From a virus: 45,345 nt of DNA. Positions 15,130 through 44,863 of this stretch are shown here, piece by piece. Within the stretch, counting starts at the first letter, position 1. Each line of letters starts with the position of its first letter. The stretch lies in IMG/VR virus record IMGVR_UViG_3300017963_000098, positions 1 through 45,345 of that record; one strand, written 5' to 3'. Below the pieces are notes generated by a model that was not told the DNA's origin, ran no database searches, and saw only the letters and a list, made by a program, of their open reading frames with translations. Both the position numbers and the translations under genes were made by a program.

Positions 15130-15876
15130 TTATTTTCTCAACTGCAATAAAAACAAAGCTATTTGTTCGCCACTGTAAAGCGGCATCATATTGACAATAT
15201 TCCACGTCTGCTCATCTATGATTACTTCCACAAGTCCCGGCTCTGGGGTGAATTCCAAACCCTGACCGGCAATACCTGTCTGCATGTCACCAACTTTAAT
15301 TACTTCACCATCGATATATTTCTGGTCATAGTTAAACGGAGGTATAATCTTCTTTGTATAGCTGACTACATCTCCGAGGTCTGTTTCACCCTCCACCTCA
15401 TCATAAGCAGCATCCGGGTAAGTTTTGAAAACAACCGTCTTACCCATTTCGTCAATCAGCTCCGTAGCAAGAGGTACGAAGTCTTGGTCAAGTTCAGTCA
15501 TATAGCCTGAAACCACACCAGATACGGAACCGCCAGCTACAAGATTCTGAACCTGTACAGATGGTACTGAAGCTATGACATTAAAGCTGTAAACGTATAA
15601 TGTAGGCACTCCGTCAATCGTAGCACTTGCCCTTATAGTGTAGGTTTTGCCCGATTGGAATCCATTATCAACGCTCGCTTCGATTTCACTGCCATAAAAA
15701 CCTGTCTGGCCGTCAATCTTCGAAAGCGTCCCTGAAACTTCTGGACTCATAGGCTCATTGCCCTCATAAACAATGAATGTGGGAGTTCCAGTCGGATCTA
15801 TAGCCTGGCCTTCACCGTCAAGAGCCTGAAAGTTAAAAGTTATGGTACATCCTAATTTGTGTTCACCAATATACAT
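15130..15876 (-). CDS. Ig-like plus head-closure-like protein, 248 aa
   Basis: Residues 1-105 form beta-rich repeats of Ig-like type (GCTITFNFQALDGEGQAIDPTGTP, TYTIRASATIDGVPTLY). Residues 120-248 resemble phage head-closure (stopper) proteins, with YIDGEVIKVGDMQTGIAGQGLEF, VEVIIDEQTWNIVNM and a LLQLRK end. The gene lies between connector genes and the gp10-like gene, which is where the stopper belongs. The Ig-like addition to the stopper is inferred by eye. Confidence 0.65.
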   Translation of the reverse strand: MYIGEHKLGCTITFNFQALDGEGQAIDPTGTPTFIVYEGNEPMSPEVSGTLSKIDGQTGFYGSEIEASVDNGFQSGKTYTIRASATIDGVPTLYVYSFNVIASVPSVQVQNLVAGGSVSGVVSGYMTELDQDFVPLATELIDEMGKTVVFKTYPDAAYDEVEGETDLGDVVSYTKKIIPPFNYDQKYIDGEVIKVGDMQTGIAGQGLEFTPEPGLVEVIIDEQTWNIVNMMPLYSGEQIALFLLQLRK

Positions 15877-16362
15877 TTATACCTCAACGCTTACTCTGCT
15901 TGGTTTAGTTGGAATATTACTGACATCGGCCTTGAAATCATCGATTGACTTCGCTGCTCCATTCACTTGAACTATATCTGCCTGCAGCTTATCACTGCCG
16001 AACATCGAATCGTAAACATTGGCTGGCATAACCATGAAATCTTCAACGAATGCAAGAATTGTTTCGGTTGGGAAATTATCAACAATCGCATCTGTAAAAG
16101 ACAATCGCAACTGTCCGAGAGTGTCCACATTTGCTGCTGTAAGTTCTAAAGTCGCAAGCCCCTTGCCAGTAAGGTTAATGTCATTATCACCACCTGTTTT
16201 TGAAAGCGTTAATTCACTGCTGCTATTACCCTTGATAAGCTCACAAACAATATCTGTCGGGTCAAATTCGTCATTATCCCGCAATAGCGTTTTGCCATCG
16301 GAATAATCAACGAATAACCCGACTACAATCGTAACCGCTGTATTTTGCCTTAAATACCTCAT
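15877..16362 (-). CDS. Phage structural protein of unknown function, 161 aa
   Basis: This 161-residue protein has a beta-rich N-terminal half and a C-terminal MVMPANVYDSMFGSDKLQADIVQVNG, the same kind of LPANVYDSL/VNG segment found in phage proteins that precede a collar or trimeric assembly. Its ATG overlaps the stop of the dockerin gene as ATGA, and its stop directly precedes the next ATG. Function unknown; probably part of the virion or its surface display. Confidence 0.65.
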   Translation of the reverse strand: MRYLRQNTAVTIVVGLFVDYSDGKTLLRDNDEFDPTDIVCELIKGNSSSELTLSKTGGDNDINLTGKGLATLELTAANVDTLGQLRLSFTDAIVDNFPTETILAFVEDFMVMPANVYDSMFGSDKLQADIVQVNGAAKSIDDFKADVSNIPTKPSRVSVEV

Positions 16363-17975
16363 TGGTTACCTCTGTAATGTCGCTGAACAGATACATCTGC
16401 AAATCCACGATTGAATGGTATCCAGCGAACAAGATTAGGGTCATTTAGCGAACCAGTAAGTCCAAGTTTGCTGTCAGTTACAGTTGTTCCAGACCCCTCA
16501 TCAAACATGAATAAGACGTTTGACGCTTTACCCATACCAAGAATAACTTCGTTACCGGCTTCCGTTCGCTCACTAAACCCCTGAATGATGTCCCCGAATC
16601 CAGCTATAACTGGTATGCCACTGAAAAAGCGTATTTTGTCAATGTCACCTCGATAAGGCTTTTTAGAGTTTTCCCCTGCGATTAAATTGTCGGAGTTACC
16701 AAAGGCAGGAAACGTACCTGACACCTCAAAGTATTCTGATTCTGTATCAATCTGAATAGTAACCCATATGCCGCCTGTGATTGTATTAAATATAAAAGCA
16801 ACTTCATGCCACTGGCCATCGTTGATACGGGTATTGCTCCTAACCTCTGCAGTAAAAGAACCACCTGAATCAAACAGATACATTTTCGGCTTACCAGATG
16901 AGAGCCCAATTTCATAACCAACACCGGAATCTTTTTTATCAATCAATCCGATAAACGATTCTCTTGTCTTGACCCAGAAGTCAATCGCCCAGCCGTTTGT
17001 AATATCGTAATAGCTGTTATCCGCAAAAGTAACGTAGCCCTTGCCGTCAAAAGATAAAGAATCCTGCGGATGGTCTATAACGGTAACAGTTACAGTTGCG
17101 ATATTGGAATCACCGCTATTTGCATCCGTTCCACCGTCATTAGCCTTAAACTGAAATGTTCGAATGCCATTTGTGTCGGCTGTAAACCAAATATCACTAC
17201 CGAATGAGCTTAGGGTATAAGGCAAATCGTTTGTATCTATGACACTGGCTCCGCTTTTTGGATCTTGGAGTATTGCGTCATTCGGATACGAAGTGATTAT
17301 ATACATCAACTTTCCGGGTACACTCGGCGAACCATCATCAGTAGCGACCATTGTTATAGTAGTGGTCTGGTGAGTATAAATCGAAACATTGACATCGCTC
17401 GCAATAGGTGGAGCGGGAATGGCGGTTACTGTTATGCTGGCCGTCCCGATAGATTTACCGCCACAAGGTGGATTCATGCCTGTGCCATCATCGGCACCAT
17501 AAGTAAAACTATCCGAACCAACATAATTCGAATCTGCCGTGTATTTGACCTGATTATCCGGTAAAATATAAGGTACAGATGAAACCTGTGTATCGTTGGA
17601 ATCGTGAACCGTACCATGACTTGGTAATGATTCCACACTATAAGTCAAAGATTGACTATCTGTCGCTGTAATGCCAAACGTATGACTTAAACCTTGAACA
17701 ACGGTAAAGGATTCGTCCTCTACTACAGGTGAACGGTCGAGAGTTTCGTAAGCAAGCCACTGGTCTGCTAAAATGGCAAGGTCATTTATATCAACAACTC
17801 CACTGTTGTCAAAATCAGTGTTCGGGTCTGATATATTGGGTTCTGAAGTTTGCCAGTCCGCAGCAAATATAGCAAAATCAAAAAAATTGACTATACAATC
17901 CCCGTTAAGATTTGCCTCTAACGCAAACACAGGGCAAGTAAGCAAAAATAGTATTATAACGACTAATCGCTTCAT
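16359..17975 (-). CDS. Secreted dockerin / Ig-like / LamG protein inside the head-tail operon
   Basis: This 538-residue protein begins with a signal peptide (MKRLVVIILFLLTCPVFA). It is followed at about 19-79 by a dockerin type I domain with two calcium-binding repeats (NGDCIVNFFDFAIFAADW and DFDNSGVVDINDLAILADQW). Two cadherin-like/Ig-like repeats follow (about 80-305), then a concanavalin/LamG-like domain (about 310-470; DGKGYVTFADNSYYDITNGWAIDFWVK). The ATG at 17975 overlaps the upstream stop as ATGA; a GTG 12 bases earlier is less likely. This design is typical of planctomycete cell-surface proteins, not of virions, yet the gene is coupled on both sides to phage genes. It may be surface cargo or a virion adhesin. 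Confidence 0.85.
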   Translation of the reverse strand: MKRLVVIILFLLTCPVFALEANLNGDCIVNFFDFAIFAADWQTSEPNISDPNTDFDNSGVVDINDLAILADQWLAYETLDRSPVVEDESFTVVQGLSHTFGITATDSQSLTYSVESLPSHGTVHDSNDTQVSSVPYILPDNQVKYTADSNYVGSDSFTYGADDGTGMNPPCGGKSIGTASITVTAIPAPPIASDVNVSIYTHQTTTITMVATDDGSPSVPGKLMYIITSYPNDAILQDPKSGASVIDTNDLPYTLSSFGSDIWFTADTNGIRTFQFKANDGGTDANSGDSNIATVTVTVIDHPQDSLSFDGKGYVTFADNSYYDITNGWAIDFWVKTRESFIGLIDKKDSGVGYEIGLSSGKPKMYLFDSGGSFTAEVRSNTRINDGQWHEVAFIFNTITGGIWVTIQIDTESEYFEVSGTFPAFGNSDNLIAGENSKKPYRGDIDKIRFFSGIPVIAGFGDIIQGFSERTEAGNEVILGMGKASNVLFMFDEGSGTTVTDSKLGLTGSLNDPNLVRWIPFNRGFADVSVQRHYRGNQ

Positions 17976-18481
17976 CTCGGCTCGCACAGCTCCATCACGG
18001 CAAGGATAAATCCCTGATTCAATTCCACTTCATAGGCATAGTTGGGGTCATTCGGCTCAGGCAATACATTCGGGTCATTGATGATGATGTGTACTGCCTT
18101 GATAATCTCACTGTTGCGTTTCTTTTCTTCGAGCTTTTCCTTTTTCTGGTCGAGGATTTTTTTGACAGCCTCCTGCTTAGTAACTTTCAGTCCCATATCC
18201 TCGCAGACTTTGACTGCTTTTTCGTTAAGTTCCTTTGCGTATTGATAGACTGTGTTTACATCCACTACACGCTGCTCTAAAACTTCCTCGATTGTCCCTG
18301 TGTATATTTTGCTTTTGAGTACATCCTCTTTAACAGGGAGTTCCTTAACCATACCCTCAATTTCTGTTTTGCGAACTTCAATATCGTTCACATCGTTAGG
18401 CTCAACAGGCGTTTTCGCTGAAGATGCAATCACCACGCCCAGTACCGCAGCGATAATCGCTATCAGATAATAAACTTTCAT
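17972..18481 (-). CDS. Membrane-anchored coiled-coil protein, 169 aa
   Basis: Residues 1-22 are a signal peptide or membrane anchor (MKVYYLIAIIAAVLGVVIASS). The rest is charged and helical, with a coiled-coil stretch at about 105-130 rich in K and E, and PN-rich segments (VEPNDVND, NDPNVLPEPNDPNY) of a style common in planctomycete exported proteins. It is coupled by ATGA to the dockerin gene, so the two exported proteins are probably made together. No family recognised. A role in anchoring the dockerin protein or shielding the lysogen is conjecture. Confidence 0.7.
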   Translation of the reverse strand: MKVYYLIAIIAAVLGVVIASSAKTPVEPNDVNDIEVRKTEIEGMVKELPVKEDVLKSKIYTGTIEEVLEQRVVDVNTVYQYAKELNEKAVKVCEDMGLKVTKQEAVKKILDQKKEKLEEKKRNSEIIKAVHIIINDPNVLPEPNDPNYAYEVELNQGFILAVMELCEPR

Positions 18482-18483
18482 AA

Positions 18484-18999
18484 TTAACCTCTTGAAATAG
18501 TGTCCACAGAGTCAAGTATTGGCCTTAACAAAGCTCTGATTTTCGGATACGCTTTAGCCGGAGCTTTACCGCCAACATATTCAACCTCTTTTTCCATGAC
18601 ACCTATCTTTTTTCTTTCACTTTTGATTGTTCCGGGATTATTCAATACGCCAAGCAAATCATCGCCAGCCAAATGCCTCAGAGCAGCTTCAACAACGGCA
18701 TATTTTAAGCAGGTAGGAATCTCATCAGAGTCATAGATATAGCCGTTAACATCAACCACGGCCGAGCGAGGCCAATCTAAGGCTTGGTCTCTGCTACCTC
18801 TGACACCAACGAATCTATTGCCATATTTCAAGTCAATATATTGTGTGCCAAGCCTGAGAGCTTCCTCTTTTTCATCATCCGTAGCATCTGACCACGATGA
18901 GGGATCGCCGTGGTCAGACACATACGAATTTGCATCAGTAAGTGAAATATAGCTATCAGCATTAGTTAATCCCGAACCTGTTTCGACTACTAAAGCCAT
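18484..18999 (-). CDS. Head-tail connector, DnaT-like family
   Basis: This 171-residue protein matches the phage family often labelled 'putative DnaT-like ssDNA-binding protein': ADSYISLTDANSYVSDHGD at the N-terminus, a helix with ALRLGTQYID, then DWPRS.VVDVNGY and EIPTCLKYAVVEAAL. The name is historical; position and pattern suggest a head completion adaptor that binds the portal. It lies two genes after the coat protein, as expected. Confidence 0.85.
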   Translation of the reverse strand: MALVVETGSGLTNADSYISLTDANSYVSDHGDPSSWSDATDDEKEEALRLGTQYIDLKYGNRFVGVRGSRDQALDWPRSAVVDVNGYIYDSDEIPTCLKYAVVEAALRHLAGDDLLGVLNNPGTIKSERKKIGVMEKEVEYVGGKAPAKAYPKIRALLRPILDSVDTISRG

Positions 19000-26441: not shown

Positions 26442-27740
26442 TTATGCCTCGATTCTCTCTGCTTTACTTCCAGTCCATTGCTCCCAACGTTTTACCGCTA
26501 CGTCTACAAAAACCGGCTCAAGCTCCATCGCATAGCATTTACGACTTAACTTCTCAGCTGCTATGATTTGAGAACCCGAACCGCAGAATGGCTCATAACA
26601 AATATCCGATGGCTGAGTATGCACCCTCATCGGGATTGCAAATACTTCAACAGGCTTGCTTGTGGGATGGTCGAATCCTACAGGACGCTTTTTGCCGTCC
26701 CAGTCCAACTCCCATACATCCGTGTAATACTCCGGTGTGTTCGGATCGCCTGACTTTATGAAACCAACAGGCCATACACTGCCGATAGATTTGTCTTTAG
26801 GTCTATATGGAGGCCTCTGACCACGCTTCCACATAAGCAGACAGGGTTCATGCCTCCAACTGAAAAACGAATAGGCCAATACCACACATGGCTTGACCCA
26901 GATAATCTGCTGATGGATTAAAATGTCCAATTCGTTGCAAACGTCCTCAATTTCCCGCCTACGTTTGCTTGCATGCCACAAATACAATGCCGTGTGTGGC
27001 TTGACTACCTTAAGCCCTACCTCATAAAATGCCCTTATAAACGCCGTGGCACTCGGTATATCCACTTCGTGATACACGTCTGACCAGTCCTTACCGCCAT
27101 TAGGTCTATCAGCTCCCGTGTAATCAACGCAATATGGCGGGTCCGTAGCGAATAGTGAAGCCAGCTTACCATCCATAAGCCTTGCGACATGCTCTGGATT
27201 AGTGCTATCCCCGCACAAAAGTCGATGCTCCCCCAAAATCCACAAATCACCCAGTTGGGTAATCGTCTCTTTTGGCGGTTCAGGGATGTCATCATCCTCG
27301 ATATTGCCAGTCTTTTCAGGAACCTCATCGATTTCGCTCTTGAGCCTGTCAATCTGCAAATCGAGATAATCCTTATCGTCCGGCAATTCACTTCGAAGCT
27401 GGTCGATGTATTCGTCCAGATTTTCAACGAAATCGCCTTGGATATGCGGATTATTGAGAGCAATGTTCAAGAGCTTTTCATCAGTAGTGTCAAGGTCAAC
27501 GACTACGCAAGTAGCTTCACAGTCCTTGCCATGCAGTTTAATCAGAGCCTTTTGCCTCTGATGCCCTCCCACAATGACATTCCGGCCGTCCCGGACATTT
27601 ACTACGATTGGCTCGATACAACCATACTTAGCCAAGCAATTCTTGAGACCTTCCAGATTCTCATCTGAAATGACTCTCGGATTATAGACTGCTGGGTTAA
27701 GAGCACTTAGCTGAAATTTCCTGAATTCAGGTTCTGTCAT
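26442..27740 (-). CDS. ParB-like domain plus DNA methyltransferase
   Basis: This 432-residue protein joins a ParB-like N-terminal domain (LNPAVYNPRVIS; CIEPIVVNVRDGRNVIVGGHQRQKAL) to a C-terminal N6/N4 methyltransferase with DPPYCVDY and CYEPFCGSGSQIIAAEKLSRKCYAMEL. Motif IV comes before motif I, the beta-class order. It probably methylates phage DNA, often to evade host restriction. No restriction endonuclease gene lies nearby. The ATG at 27740 was chosen because it lies just before the ParB domain; one at 27764 is possible. It overlaps the upstream gene by 14 bases. Confidence 0.92.
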   Translation of the reverse strand: MTEPEFRKFQLSALNPAVYNPRVISDENLEGLKNCLAKYGCIEPIVVNVRDGRNVIVGGHQRQKALIKLHGKDCEATCVVVDLDTTDEKLLNIALNNPHIQGDFVENLDEYIDQLRSELPDDKDYLDLQIDRLKSEIDEVPEKTGNIEDDDIPEPPKETITQLGDLWILGEHRLLCGDSTNPEHVARLMDGKLASLFATDPPYCVDYTGADRPNGGKDWSDVYHEVDIPSATAFIRAFYEVGLKVVKPHTALYLWHASKRRREIEDVCNELDILIHQQIIWVKPCVVLAYSFFSWRHEPCLLMWKRGQRPPYRPKDKSIGSVWPVGFIKSGDPNTPEYYTDVWELDWDGKKRPVGFDHPTSKPVEVFAIPMRVHTQPSDICYEPFCGSGSQIIAAEKLSRKCYAMELEPVFVDVAVKRWEQWTGSKAERIEA

Positions 27741-27921
27741 TTTCAAAAAGTTTCCATATTTCATGCATGTGAGTAGCTTCCCACTGAGCTAAACTTTTTT
27801 GAGCTTCATACAAAACGTGCAGTTTTTTAGGACCGCAACTTTCCATAAGAAGCAAAATCTTCCTATGAATTTCCCTTACTTCATCTCTCATATCTCCCAA
27901 ATTAGTTCCGTGGTAAACCAT
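27727..27921 (-). CDS. Small helical protein, 64 aa
   Basis: This 64-residue helical protein starts MVYHGTNLGDMRDEVREIH with GGTGA 5 bases upstream. Its C-terminus overlaps the start of the ParB-methyltransferase. No family recognised. The 14-base overlap suggests coupling with the methyltransferase. Confidence 0.6.
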   Translation of the reverse strand: MVYHGTNLGDMRDEVREIHRKILLLMESCGPKKLHVLYEAQKSLAQWEATHMHEIWKLFENDRT

Positions 27922-31102: not shown

Positions 31103-31477
31103 TTAATCCCTGTTCTCATTGAAGTGGTCATTCAGAAACCCGTGCATGTAAAACAGAGCATACAAAGGACCTGCTAACCACCACACTACACCTATGAAAC
31201 CGAACATAATCACATTGTCTGCTTTTTTGGGTAAAAGGTTACGAATCCAACGAGTGATAGTAACGGTTTGAATATCTTTTTGTTTCGCTTCACGGATTAT
31301 GTAAAGGTCAAGAATGCCAATTACAGCTAACACAATCCACGCAGTATATGCGAGGTTAATGTTTCCACTTCTGGCTGCAATAACAGCCAATGCGAACGCC
31401 GGAATCAATAACCCAGCACCTACAATCTGGACAGTATATAGTTGCCATTGGCTTTTGAAAAAATCTTTAATTTTCAT
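31103..31477 (-). CDS. Membrane protein, 124 aa
   Basis: Three membrane spans are likely: about 16-35 (VQIVGAGLLIPAFALAVIAA), 42-60 (LAYTAWIVLAVIGILDLYII) and 90-112 (IMFGFIGVVWWLAGPLYALF). Unrecognised. It overlaps the lipoprotein gene by 11 bases and ends before a terminator. May be part of a lysis or membrane-protection cassette; no signature proves this. Confidence 0.68.
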   Translation of the reverse strand: MKIKDFFKSQWQLYTVQIVGAGLLIPAFALAVIAARSGNINLAYTAWIVLAVIGILDLYIIREAKQKDIQTVTITRWIRNLLPKKADNVIMFGFIGVVWWLAGPLYALFYMHGFLNDHFNENRD

Positions 31478-31922
31478 AATTTGAGTCTCCTAATCTTTGT
31501 TTAAAAATTTCATTACGTTCTCTTTGATATTCGACTGATTTCCAAATCAATAATCCTAAACCTATAACCAATACACCCAATGCAATCCATTCAGCAAACT
31601 TGGCAAAGGCGGTTATCAATCCTAAGCCCACAGCACAAGACGCAGGTATCACAAAACCGTAGCGACTGCGAGTAAAGCCCCAAAAAACAAGACCTCCGAC
31701 AAACGCTATCACTAAGCCAGCATACAACCAGGCATTATGCTTTTGGGTCTCAGCCACTCTGGCAGTAGCGGTCTTTTGATTATCCGCAATCTGTTCAGCA
31801 ATCGTATCAGCAGCTTTACCACGATATTCAATTGGTATATTTGGGTCATTCTCTGAAAAACGAATCATAGACTGCTGACAACCAGCAATCAGCAGAATTG
31901 TGAAGATAAGTAATCGTTTCAT
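31467..31922 (-). CDS. Lipoprotein with membrane spans, 151 aa
   Basis: A lipobox (LLIAGC, Cys15) follows a short signal sequence, so the N-terminus is lipid-linked. After a charged region come three membrane spans (about 66-82, 92-106, 112-128). Such a lipoprotein just after a two-span holin-like protein is reminiscent of spanin/holin cassettes, but the extra spans are atypical. Start overlaps the upstream stop as ATGA. Confidence 0.7.
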   Translation of the reverse strand: MKRLLIFTILLIAGCQQSMIRFSENDPNIPIEYRGKAADTIAEQIADNQKTATARVAETQKHNAWLYAGLVIAFVGGLVFWGFTRSRYGFVIPASCAVGLGLITAFAKFAEWIALGVLVIGLGLLIWKSVEYQRERNEIFKQRLGDSNYEN

Positions 31923-36025: not shown

Positions 36026-36241
36026 TTATTTTTTGCTCCACTTCATGACACCCTCGAAAGCCAGCACAAGGAAAATCAAGTCCCTGACTAATAGGCTATA
36101 AATCTCTGCGTCAAAGTGCAGGTAAGCCGAAATGAGGTTGCTAACAATCCACACGTAGAAACAACTAATCATTTTGCGGTTATTGAGTAAAACACCAACG
36201 ACCGCTAATATCATCGAGATTGTTCCAAACACTTCGTTCAT
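36026..36241 (-). CDS. PnuC-like small membrane protein, 71 aa
   Basis: This 71-residue protein has two or three hydrophobic spans and the pattern GVLLNNRKMISCFYVWIVSNL, as in small phage proteins related to the NMN transporter PnuC. Overlaps the helicase-methyltransferase stop as ATGA. A full PnuC is about 200 residues, so transport activity is doubtful; it may act as a pore subunit. Confidence 0.75.
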   Translation of the reverse strand: MNEVFGTISMILAVVGVLLNNRKMISCFYVWIVSNLISAYLHFDAEIYSLLVRDLIFLVLAFEGVMKWSKK

Positions 36242-38388
36242 AGCATTTCACCAAACAGCGTATTTTCGTTAACTTCATTACAGGCCTGGCGAATGTTCTT
36301 CACGGCCTGTTCGAAGTATGAATCCTTAAGTTCAATCCCTACAAATTTCCGGCCAGTTTTAATCGAAATGTAACCCTCTGAACCGATGCCTAAAAAAGGA
36401 CTGAATACAGTATCACCCTCATTGCTCCAGAGTTTGACCGCATGTTCAATAACATCGAGCTGAAGTGGACAGATATGCTTTTCGTCTTTGTCATCACGAG
36501 CTGCCCGAATGTTAAGAACGTTTGTCTGCTGAATATCAAACCACACCGGACTTGCGTATCGTTGCCATACGTGGATTGAGTAGCCTCTTTTATCACTATT
36601 GCTGCCGATAGCTTCCTTTCTGCCCTTCGGAGCTCCAGCGACCGCCAGACCCATCCTTACAACACTCTCATCGCCCACATAAGAGTCAAACCTCTCCCCA
36701 CCTGTTGTTACTGGTGAATCGTTCTCATCAGCCCACTTGCGGAAAACAACGAGATAATCAGGGCATCCCTGCCGTGAGTATGTACTGTCCTTGCACAGTT
36801 GTTTATACAGCAGACCATGAGATTTAGTCCGCTGCATTTCGATAACGGGGTCCTTCCAGATAGTTACTCTTGAATGATAGGACCAGCCGTATTTCTCAAA
36901 CAGTCTGATTATCTCGCCGGGAAAATCCTTTAACCCTGCAACACCATCCCTGTTTTTGTATTTCATCAGGTCCTTACAATGAACCACACACAGACGGCCG
37001 TTCATTGTGATTCGATAAATCTCGGGTATGAGATATTCGAAATTCTGTAAGAATTCCTCATCACTTTTACAATTGCCCATATCCCGATACGAATCGCTGT
37101 AGATATAAAGATTACTAAATGGTGGACTGAAAATTGAAAAGCCGATGGATCTGTCTGGTATCTCTTTGATTTCCTCAACACAATCACCCCTGAGAAGCCT
37201 TGCATCCCCGATGTTCACCTCATCAGGCTCATAGTCCATCTTGAATCTAATATCCTTATTGGCTGTTTGATAGTTTTTGGCAATGGCAATCATTCTTTTT
37301 TTCATTGCCCTGTGTTGTGATTCCTTGCCGTTGACAATGTCTATGATTTGCTTTTCTGTTTCGCCGATAATACGATTGACGTTGACTTGATTTGGCTGGC
37401 CATATCGATAGAACCTACGGATGGCCTGATAATAATTCTCATCAGCTTCTTGGTTCGTCTCACACCAGACAACATGCTGACCATTCGACTCCCGTACTAA
37501 GTCTGCTGTTTTTTCGGCTCGTGATTTAGCAGTGAGGCGTTTTTCTTTATGATAAGATGTCGCACTTAATTCCGGTTGTCTGAACAAAAGACCTTCAGTC
37601 GGCTCTGACCAGTCAACGGGAACGATAAAATCTTCGACCTGTAGTGGCGGTAATTCGTATCCATCGTCGCTATATCCAATATCGCTTGGCTTTGTAATAC
37701 ATACCGCCCAAGTCGATACCCATCGCCAAAAGTCCTGCTCGGCGTGTTTTTTCAAACGATAAGTGCCGGCTGACATCGAATCGTTGATAAACCATATCAA
37801 CAGTGCCTCATGACTCTGCATAACCTGTAAATATGCGGCATGGTTAAGCAGCTCCATATAATCATTCGGAGCTGGTGTTGCGGTACCTGCCAGCTTAAAC
37901 GGAATCCCCTCGGCAAAATCAACTATCTGCTTTTTGACCTTGCCCGTATAACTCTTGAGTATAGAGCTTTCATCAACCACGATTCCGGCATAATCATCAG
38001 GACAGAAATTACCGAGCATTTCGTAATTGGTAACTGTAATACCTGTTTGTGACCGCTGGCCGTCTCTGCGATACTCCGACTCAATACCACAAAGCTCTTG
38101 CTCCATTTCAACGGTTTGGGGAGCAACTGACAACGGTGTGACGATTAGAACATGCCCACGGTGCCTTAGAACCTCATAAGCCCAAGCCAACTCTTGAGGT
38201 GTTTTGCCAAGCCCACAATCCTCAAACAGACAAAAGACCTGCCTGTTCAAAGCCCTGATAGTTACATCTGCCTGCCAGTCAAATAATGACTTATTAACAG
38301 AATCAACCTTCAAACCTTCAGGCTCAAAATCTATCGCCTTGCTTTGCAGGAAGTCTTGATATTCAATAGTTTCCGTACTTACAGTCAT
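36238..38388 (-). CDS. SNF2-type helicase fused to DNA methyltransferase, with missing helicase segment
   Basis: This 716-residue protein combines an SF2 helicase (Walker A GLGKT at 59-63, DES at 139-141, LAGTATPAPNDYMELLN) with an adenine/cytosine-N4 methyltransferase. Motif IV is SPPF at 421-424; motif I is FSPFLGIGSEG near 667. At about residues 309-325 the text passes from VVWCETNQEAD straight to ENYYQAIRRFYRYGQ. In related proteins, as I recall, about 70-75 residues with helicase motifs IV-V lie between these. The reading frame stays open, so this looks like an in-frame deletion. The methyltransferase part is intact. Confidence 0.88.
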   Translation of the reverse strand: MTVSTETIEYQDFLQSKAIDFEPEGLKVDSVNKSLFDWQADVTIRALNRQVFCLFEDCGLGKTPQELAWAYEVLRHRGHVLIVTPLSVAPQTVEMEQELCGIESEYRRDGQRSQTGITVTNYEMLGNFCPDDYAGIVVDESSILKSYTGKVKKQIVDFAEGIPFKLAGTATPAPNDYMELLNHAAYLQVMQSHEALLIWFINDSMSAGTYRLKKHAEQDFWRWVSTWAVCITKPSDIGYSDDGYELPPLQVEDFIVPVDWSEPTEGLLFRQPELSATSYHKEKRLTAKSRAEKTADLVRESNGQHVVWCETNQEADENYYQAIRRFYRYGQPNQVNVNRIIGETEKQIIDIVNGKESQHRAMKKRMIAIAKNYQTANKDIRFKMDYEPDEVNIGDARLLRGDCVEEIKEIPDRSIGFSIFSPPFSNLYIYSDSYRDMGNCKSDEEFLQNFEYLIPEIYRITMNGRLCVVHCKDLMKYKNRDGVAGLKDFPGEIIRLFEKYGWSYHSRVTIWKDPVIEMQRTKSHGLLYKQLCKDSTYSRQGCPDYLVVFRKWADENDSPVTTGGERFDSYVGDESVVRMGLAVAGAPKGRKEAIGSNSDKRGYSIHVWQRYASPVWFDIQQTNVLNIRAARDDKDEKHICPLQLDVIEHAVKLWSNEGDTVFSPFLGIGSEGYISIKTGRKFVGIELKDSYFEQAVKNIRQACNEVNENTLFGEML

Positions 38389-44221: not shown

Positions 44222-44863
44222 ATGAAAAAAATAGTGTTATCTGCAATTATTTTTTTTGGGATGGGTTGCGATTTTTTTGTTGATTTTGCATCAGCGTCTC
44301 TTATCAACTACAACAACGGACAAACAAACGAGATTGATTTTAACTGGACAGACTGGGCAGAAGATAACTTGTCCGGTACTATCGAACTGGTAGGCCCTCC
44401 GGGACGCGTTGTTGTTAGTGTTTCAGATTTGGACATATACCAACAATATCGCCCAGTTGATGGTTGCATCGAAATTACGGATAGTCCGAGCAGTATCTCT
44501 ACAATCGCAAATTTTACTTTTCCCTGCCGAATCTCGGATATATCAGTTTATGGCGATAGCTGTGCAAACATCCAAGGGGGGACTGTGGTTCCTTGGGTGA
44601 TGAGGTCAACATCTGAATTCTATGAGATTAAGGCATATGACAGCAGTAATATCTATATATATGGTACAAATTTCAATCTGCCTTTGGGTGAAATTGTTAG
44701 TACGCAGGGTTTATTAACAGGAACATTAGAAGGCGGGCAAGACATTGATGTTCAATTTTATCGTGAGTCGGGAGCTTCAATTATCCTTGTTCCAGAGCCA
44801 TCGACGCTTCTGTTATTTAGCTTGTGTTTTTATTTGTTAAGAAAATCAGAAGGTGTTAAATGA
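44222..44863 (+). CDS. Secreted PEP-CTERM protein, 213 aa
   Basis: An N-terminal signal peptide (MKKIVLSAIIFFGMGCDFF) is followed by a beta-rich domain. The C-terminus has VPEPSTLLLFSLCFYLLRKS, the PEP-CTERM signal: PEP motif, hydrophobic span, basic tail. An exosortase of the host would cut and anchor or release it. The gene is cargo on the rightward end of the prophage, coupled to the lipoprotein by ATGA. Its exported domain is not recognised. Confidence 0.88.
   Translation: MKKIVLSAIIFFGMGCDFFVDFASASLINYNNGQTNEIDFNWTDWAEDNLSGTIELVGPPGRVVVSVSDLDIYQQYRPVDGCIEITDSPSSISTIANFTFPCRISDISVYGDSCANIQGGTVVPWVMRSTSEFYEIKAYDSSNIYIYGTNFNLPLGEIVSTQGLLTGTLEGGQDIDVQFYRESGASIILVPEPSTLLLFSLCFYLLRKSEGVK

Follow-up and report, generated by a model that had tools for sequence, protein, structure and literature searches.

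The analyzed window is the linear IMG/VR record IMGVR_UViG_3300017963_000098 (45,345 bases) of a temperate siphophage. A cassette of three genes, named here CC, DOCK, and RYL, separates its head-tail adaptor gene from its head-closure gene, and the cassette is accompanied by an Ig-like domain (IgN) that is fused to the head-closure protein. The integrase, cassette and bordering genes are as follows:

124-1338: integrase.
15130..15495, minus strand: Hc1 part of the head-closure protein, encoded by the same gene as IgN (residues 127-248; phrog_161, E 2.7e-14); downstream phage border.
15577..15876, minus strand: IgN, an Ig-like domain at residues 1-100 of the 248-aa head-closure protein.
15877..16362, minus strand: RYL, a 161-aa Ig-like protein (MRYLRQNTAV...); cassette gene 3.
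16359..17975, minus strand: DOCK, a 538-aa protein predicted to be exported, described by Pfam and AlphaFold2 (AF2); cassette gene 2.
17766..17909, minus strand: dockerin-type stretch within DOCK, two Ca-binding loops with a helix after each.
17972..18481, minus strand: CC, a 169-aa protein whose hydrophobic N-terminus is an export signal or an anchor, with a charged helical region; cassette gene 1.
18484..18999, minus strand: head-tail adaptor Ad1 of the DnaT_2 family (phrog_477, E 7e-46; PF20557, 132.5 bits); upstream phage border.

CC and DOCK overlap by 4 nt (ATGA, 17972-17975), as do DOCK and RYL (ATGA, 16359-16362), and the gap between Ad1 and CC is 2 nt. These coordinates and phrog matches confirm the preliminary description of two ORFs of 169 and 538 residues with ATGA overlaps, flanked by adaptor and closure genes. 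That description treated the pair as the unit; the coupling of CC to DOCK stands, but the unit is larger and also comprises RYL and the Ig domain of the closure protein.

DOCK is composed of a signal peptide (residues 1-20), a dockerin (21-76), two Ig-like domains (80-187 and 188-302), a LamG domain (303-455), and a conserved C-terminal part (456-538). The LamG, or concanavalin-like lectin, domain was identified by PF13385 (49.2 bits vs. the cut-off of 27.6, E 8e-13) and one Ig domain by Big_9 (E 3e-7), while a second Ig-like domain is modeled by AF2 with fair to good confidence. The dockerin alone stays below the Pfam gathering cut-off of 22.9 bits, with 16.7 bits and, in a second profile search, 20.6 bits. 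It contains two Ca-loops, NLNGDCIVNFFD at residue 22 and DFDNSGVVDIND at residue 54, and paired strict loops of this kind occurred in 0/20,000 shuffles of DOCK. Both loops are kept in 7/7 homologues that span the domain, a count that leaves out an eighth homologue, L007, cut by the contig end after loop 1. In the most distant homologue, L173, the dockerin is above the cut-off (35.2 bits, E 1.4e-8). Moreover, residues 18-72 of DOCK match 2y3n_B, a solved cellulosomal dockerin chain (E 0.007), and the AF2 model has the loop-plus-helix arrangement of dockerins, with helices at residues 31-43 and 63-79, at low pLDDT. The dockerin-type nature of this stretch is thus supported beyond chance, and a chance motif was rejected on account of the shuffles and of the loops kept in homologues. 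The mean pLDDT of the AF2 model is 61, with the dockerin below 50 and a weak LamG, so that its Foldseek matches say no more than Ig/LamG-like. The previously noticed combination of signal peptide, dockerin, Ig-like and LamG domains in DOCK is therefore real, with LamG above the cut-off and the dockerin, at 16.7-20.6 bits, backed by the Ca-loops and by L173.

The N-termini of DOCK and CC are the most hydrophobic ones among the late-operon genes (KD 3.47 and 3.31, respectively). In DOCK, the n-, h-, and c-regions of a signal peptide were recognized by a rule-based scan, for which lambda Lom served as the positive control and which flagged RYL too, probably wrongly. A signal-peptide-like N-terminus is present on every DOCK and CC homologue with a readable N-terminus; in DOCK homologues it is kept down to 24% identity, though the N-terminus is the more variable part of the protein. 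CC and DOCK are presumably exported by the Sec route, and the hydrophobic N-terminus of CC may be either a cleaved signal or a retained anchor. The heptad periodicity of CC was matched by 94/5000 shuffles for residues 75-130 and by 327/5000 for residues 35-130. Hence, from the earlier notion of two exported proteins, one of them a coiled coil, the export signals hold for both proteins, whereas the coiled coil of CC is moderately supported. Searches with CC found no match in the PDB or among protein families. In the planctomycete late operons, 13/138 ORFs carry signal peptides vs. 14/680 in unselected relatives; because several loci of the former set were picked for carrying the cassette, and because part of the signal-peptide calls are uncertain, no enrichment is claimed.

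Homologues of DOCK were identified among the searched viral contigs and genomes at loci L002/L003 (83% identity), L004, L007, L005, L034, L059, L010 (the same as L033/L067), L173, and L188. The identity of CC homologues to the window protein is 72% in L002, 54% in L004, 53% in L007, 43-45% in L010, 41% in L188, and 23% in L173. The closest whole-phage relative of the window is the phage carrying L010, which is located on contig MHXU01000101 (C101) of the MAG Planctomycetes bacterium GWC2_45_44. It shares with the window terL (74% identity), portal (68%), and MCP (64%), as well as the cassette genes DOCK (49%), CC (43%), and RYL (56%). The C101 phage extends to an integrase with host genes beyond it (the names of the host genes are our reading of the sequences), which makes it a prophage integrated in a planctomycete genome. 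The window is accordingly very probably a planctomycete phage, as had been assumed, its host being deduced from the C101 relative alone. L173 is a phage contig in genome G036 from the same class as GWC2_45_44, with the gene order terminase, portal, protease, capsid, adaptor, and tail (the adaptor was assigned by phrog_442 and most others were read from sequence). A search of DOCK, RYL, and CC against 50,697 annotated phage records gave no match. The statement of the preliminary description that no such phage system was known to it agrees with our search of the open-access literature, where none was found; mentions of phage dockerins were there limited to a BLAST remark on gene 40 of a Vibrio phage and to a coliphage tailspike with a structural resemblance.

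The core gene order in 80 loci found via the major capsid protein is capsid, small protein, adaptor, closure, neck, terminator, and tube. In L061, L062, L066, L068, and L070 the adaptor, closure and neck genes are arranged with no genes between adaptor and closure. The cassette thus resembles a moron in being a set of extra genes absent from collinear relatives, but not in having its own promoter and terminator: no promoter-like excess, gap or terminator of its own was found around CC-DOCK in the window. Given the 2-nt gap, the overlaps, and no excess of signals, it is a cargo cassette and not a classical moron. The same layout argues for late co-expression with the structural genes in the window and makes expression of CC-DOCK in lysogens doubtful. 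In C101, a 195-nt gap precedes CC and could hold a promoter. The DOCK genes of L005 and L059 occupy a different slot, after the neck gene, and LamG proteins without signal peptide adjoin the adaptor in L057, L058, and L060. In closer relatives of the window phage, other cargo genes beside the adaptor also encode exported proteins. Beta-barrel-type proteins (TDKVVWRG) with weak matches to TorF/TDE1717 families are encoded directly after the head-tail adaptor at L057:2994-3677 and L055:4343-5029. Signal-peptide proteins with a weak major-tail/sheath-type domain are encoded between the capsid and adaptor genes at L010:6027-6797, L055:2551-3648, L056, and L064:2894-3691.

Five phage backbones with no other detectable protein in common were observed to carry CC-DOCK, usually with RYL. 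For instance, L002 and the window share DOCK (83%), CC (72%), RYL (70%), and no other protein. In an all-against-all blastp comparison (E<=1e-4), the P22-coat group, L002, L004, L173, and L188 have only cassette genes in common, apart from one additional CBM-like protein that L173 and L188 both encode; L002, L004, and L188 are partial contigs, whose unseen genes could be common. At least five otherwise unrelated phages have evidently exchanged the cassette as a unit. The set is not indivisible, since CC is missing beside DOCK in L005 and L059, and RYL is missing from the CC-DOCK locus of L173; the overlap linkage of DOCK and RYL is present in all loci except L173. At L188:2287-3030, a reverse-strand ORF with an HTH-like sequence is inserted between CC and DOCK. 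The dN/dS ratios of 0.115 for CC (against L002), 0.081 for DOCK, and 0.158 for RYL, those of CC and DOCK being approximate as their dS is near or beyond saturation, indicate purifying selection on all three genes. As the pair is conserved and under purifying selection, a phage function is supported. The GC content and codon use of DOCK are within the range of the phage itself, while CC deviates somewhat in composition (GC3 0.49, codon score -0.02). A recent insertion of a host gene was rejected, because DOCK fits the phage in GC content and codon use and its homologues recur in other phages. Neither of the two observations named in advance as refuting a phage system was thus made: the pair is found in related and unrelated phages rather than being absent from relatives, and DOCK is phage-like in composition.

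RYL is a phage-type protein. It was modeled by AF2 with an Ig-like fold (pLDDT 77), has no clear signal peptide in the window, and gives moderate Foldseek matches (TMq about 0.35-0.5) to BppU and to tail and adaptor proteins of phages. In the prophage-like regions L174, L175, L177, L179, and L180 from genomes of the class, RYL directly follows a LamG gene of 255-272 aa without signal peptide. Most of the RYL family lacks a signal peptide; homologues with one were observed at L010:9566-10516 of C101 and in the RYL-containing frame of L178. IgN has 55% identity to residues 1-100 of a 239-aa protein of L188 that sits after RYL and before a gpZ-type Neck1, and the rest of both proteins differs; thus, two unrelated necks have the same domain beside the cassette. 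The genomes of the host class match DOCK in pieces only, namely in the dockerin, in the Ig region, or mostly at model positions about 181-296, the latter being taken to be largely an FN3-like insert of L004/L005/L034. Several host proteins start with a signal peptide and a dockerin, and one in genome G147 then has an Ig domain, as DOCK does. Together with the pairs of signal-peptide-less LamG and RYL genes in prophages, this suggests that DOCK is a host front end (signal peptide, dockerin and Ig) joined to the phage LamG partner of RYL. A putative second case of such a graft is offered by L188:763-1389, where a signal peptide and a single dockerin repeat are found on a CBM-like protein, a homologue of which without signal peptide comes after DOCK in L173.

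In the MAG hosting the C101 prophage, searches returned 41 matches for dockerin (E up to 1) but no match for cohesin (PF00963). Within its class, dockerins were identified in 121/150 genomes and cohesins in 21/150 (E<=0.001). With many dockerins and few cohesins, a standard dockerin-cohesin dock is not the default expectation, and the suggested docking of virions on a cohesin-bearing surface is unsupported; a divergent partner would escape this search. In freshwater planctomycetes, a dockerin/cohesin complex termed 'planctosome' has been proposed, with an adapter containing a signal peptide, dockerin, HYR and cohesin (PMC6461901). The abundance of dockerins without cohesins is an open puzzle in planctomycetes, for which a phage-borne dockerin provides a small, testable system to find partners.

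We propose, tentatively and with a chance a little short of even, that the locus is a mobile three-gene cassette with an associated Ig domain, co-expressed late, whose exported lectin works where the virion neck meets the host surface. CC and DOCK would leave the cytoplasm by the Sec route, and the Ca-dependent dockerin stretch would attach DOCK to some component of the planctomycete surface that binds dockerins or is ordered by calcium, maybe the same role that it has in the many host proteins carrying dockerin. The LamG domain would bind a glycan or pair with the Ig-like RYL; many LamG domains bind protein, not glycan. The exported lectin would then either be picked up by virions at cell opening and used for docking, or stay on the cell covering receptors; the data do not separate both, and we lean slightly toward the pick-up by particles. 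Action at the neck and surface is argued by the position of the RYL family elsewhere, after LamG genes without signal peptide, and by the Ig domain fused to the head-closure ring. Since RYL and the closure protein have no clear signal peptide in the window, they would meet DOCK only after lysis. If exported DOCK does reach virions, this would be an unusual particle-decoration route for a tailed phage.

A somewhat unlikely but serious alternative is surface masking or superinfection exclusion only. CC and DOCK would then form a coat on the infected or lysogenic cell, hide its receptors, and shield the cell or the progeny, and RYL and IgN would be separate neck decorations. This alternative is consistent with the signal peptides, seen on all DOCK and CC proteins whose N-terminus is readable, with the beta-barrel proteins of outer-membrane type that occupy the same slot in L055 and L057, and with lambda Lom and the HK97 morons as known examples of tail-operon cargo; however, DOCK and RYL are linked by overlap in all loci but L173, and the genes have no own promoter in the window. 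We consider distinctly unlikely the further scenario that planctomycete phages graft the exportable host signal peptide-dockerin tag onto their lectin fibre proteins, and that these are exported and then attached to Ig modules of the neck at cell opening; the particles would in that case carry a host-type surface protein whose assembly takes place outside the cytoplasm. Less probable again is an ordinary neck or tail lectin, built into particles in the cytoplasm, the hydrophobic N-terminus being unused or a host leftover: the position in the structural operon and the signal-peptide-less LamG genes that are common beside the adaptor (L057, L058, L060) and before RYL would fit, but all homologues down to 24% identity have a signal-peptide-like N-terminus and DOCK has host-type secreted domains. 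There is little probability that the cassette serves lysogenic conversion to the benefit of the host, as a prophage-borne adhesion or biofilm factor. The integrase, the integrated relative, and the adhesin-like architecture point in that direction; however, the cassette is embedded in a late operon, and among 298 genomes of the class full-length DOCK was found only in a G001 phage contig, with no host-borne copies seen (the divergent G036 copy is below the cut-off). A lysis accessory, in which CC would resemble the inner-membrane subunit of a spanin and DOCK would be the partner of CC, is very improbable. CC does have an N-terminal hydrophobic segment, a helical domain and an overlap with the next gene, but DOCK lacks the lipobox of an o-spanin and has 538 aa of Ig/LamG, L005 and L059 are without CC, and a separate overlapping pair at 31103-31922 of the window (lipobox, TM) fits better.

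The proposed cassette, which would act at the virion neck and host surface, has partial counterparts in known systems. The dockerin type I proteins of Planctomycetota and the 'planctosome' adapter (PMC6461901) share with DOCK the signal peptide, N-terminal dockerin, and Ig-like repeats, and the lineage-typical D..DFAxLAxxW loops are those of planctomycetal dockerin proteins; unlike the adapter of the planctosome, itself a hypothesis of its authors, DOCK is encoded by a phage within a structural operon, has LamG instead of cohesin at its end, and lacks a peptidase. Lambda Lom is likewise a signal-peptide protein inside a siphophage structural operon, and the sole such match in the lambda late region by the same scan, but it is of the beta-barrel type, whereas DOCK has several domains, resembles a lectin, and is exchanged together with its partners as a cassette. 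The HK97 morons gp15, gp22, and gp23 are also cargo genes in a tail operon; they are single genes annotated with terminators, whereas the cassette is coupled into its operon by overlaps. RYL resembles BppU-type Ig-like baseplate/adaptor proteins in its predicted fold, which matches BppU and other tail proteins, yet it has no sequence-family match and the fold matches are moderate. The dockerin of the cellulosomal dockerin-cohesin pair has the same two Ca-loop/helix repeats (match to 2y3n_B), but the host MAG has no cohesin match and DOCK is without an enzyme. Planctomycete phages are little studied, and the cassette, apparently exchanged as a unit across unrelated tailed phages of this group, combines parts of host surface proteins with phage lectin and neck modules.

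Several other genes of the window were noted. A signal-peptide protein is encoded near the integrase end in both the window (44222-44863, plus strand) and the L048 region of C101 (26279-26983, minus strand); the window protein has a PEP-CTERM sorting motif at the detection edge (NCBIfam 16.5 vs. the cut-off of 16) and is a possible lysogenic-conversion gene. The early region (31103-31922, minus strand) encodes overlapping proteins of 151 aa, with a lipobox-like LIAGC start, and of 124 aa, with a TM segment, which are possible lysis or envelope genes. Two DNA-methyltransferase genes are located at 26442-27764 and 36238-38388 on the minus strand, one with a ParB-like N-terminus and one matching phage helicase and methyltransferase families.
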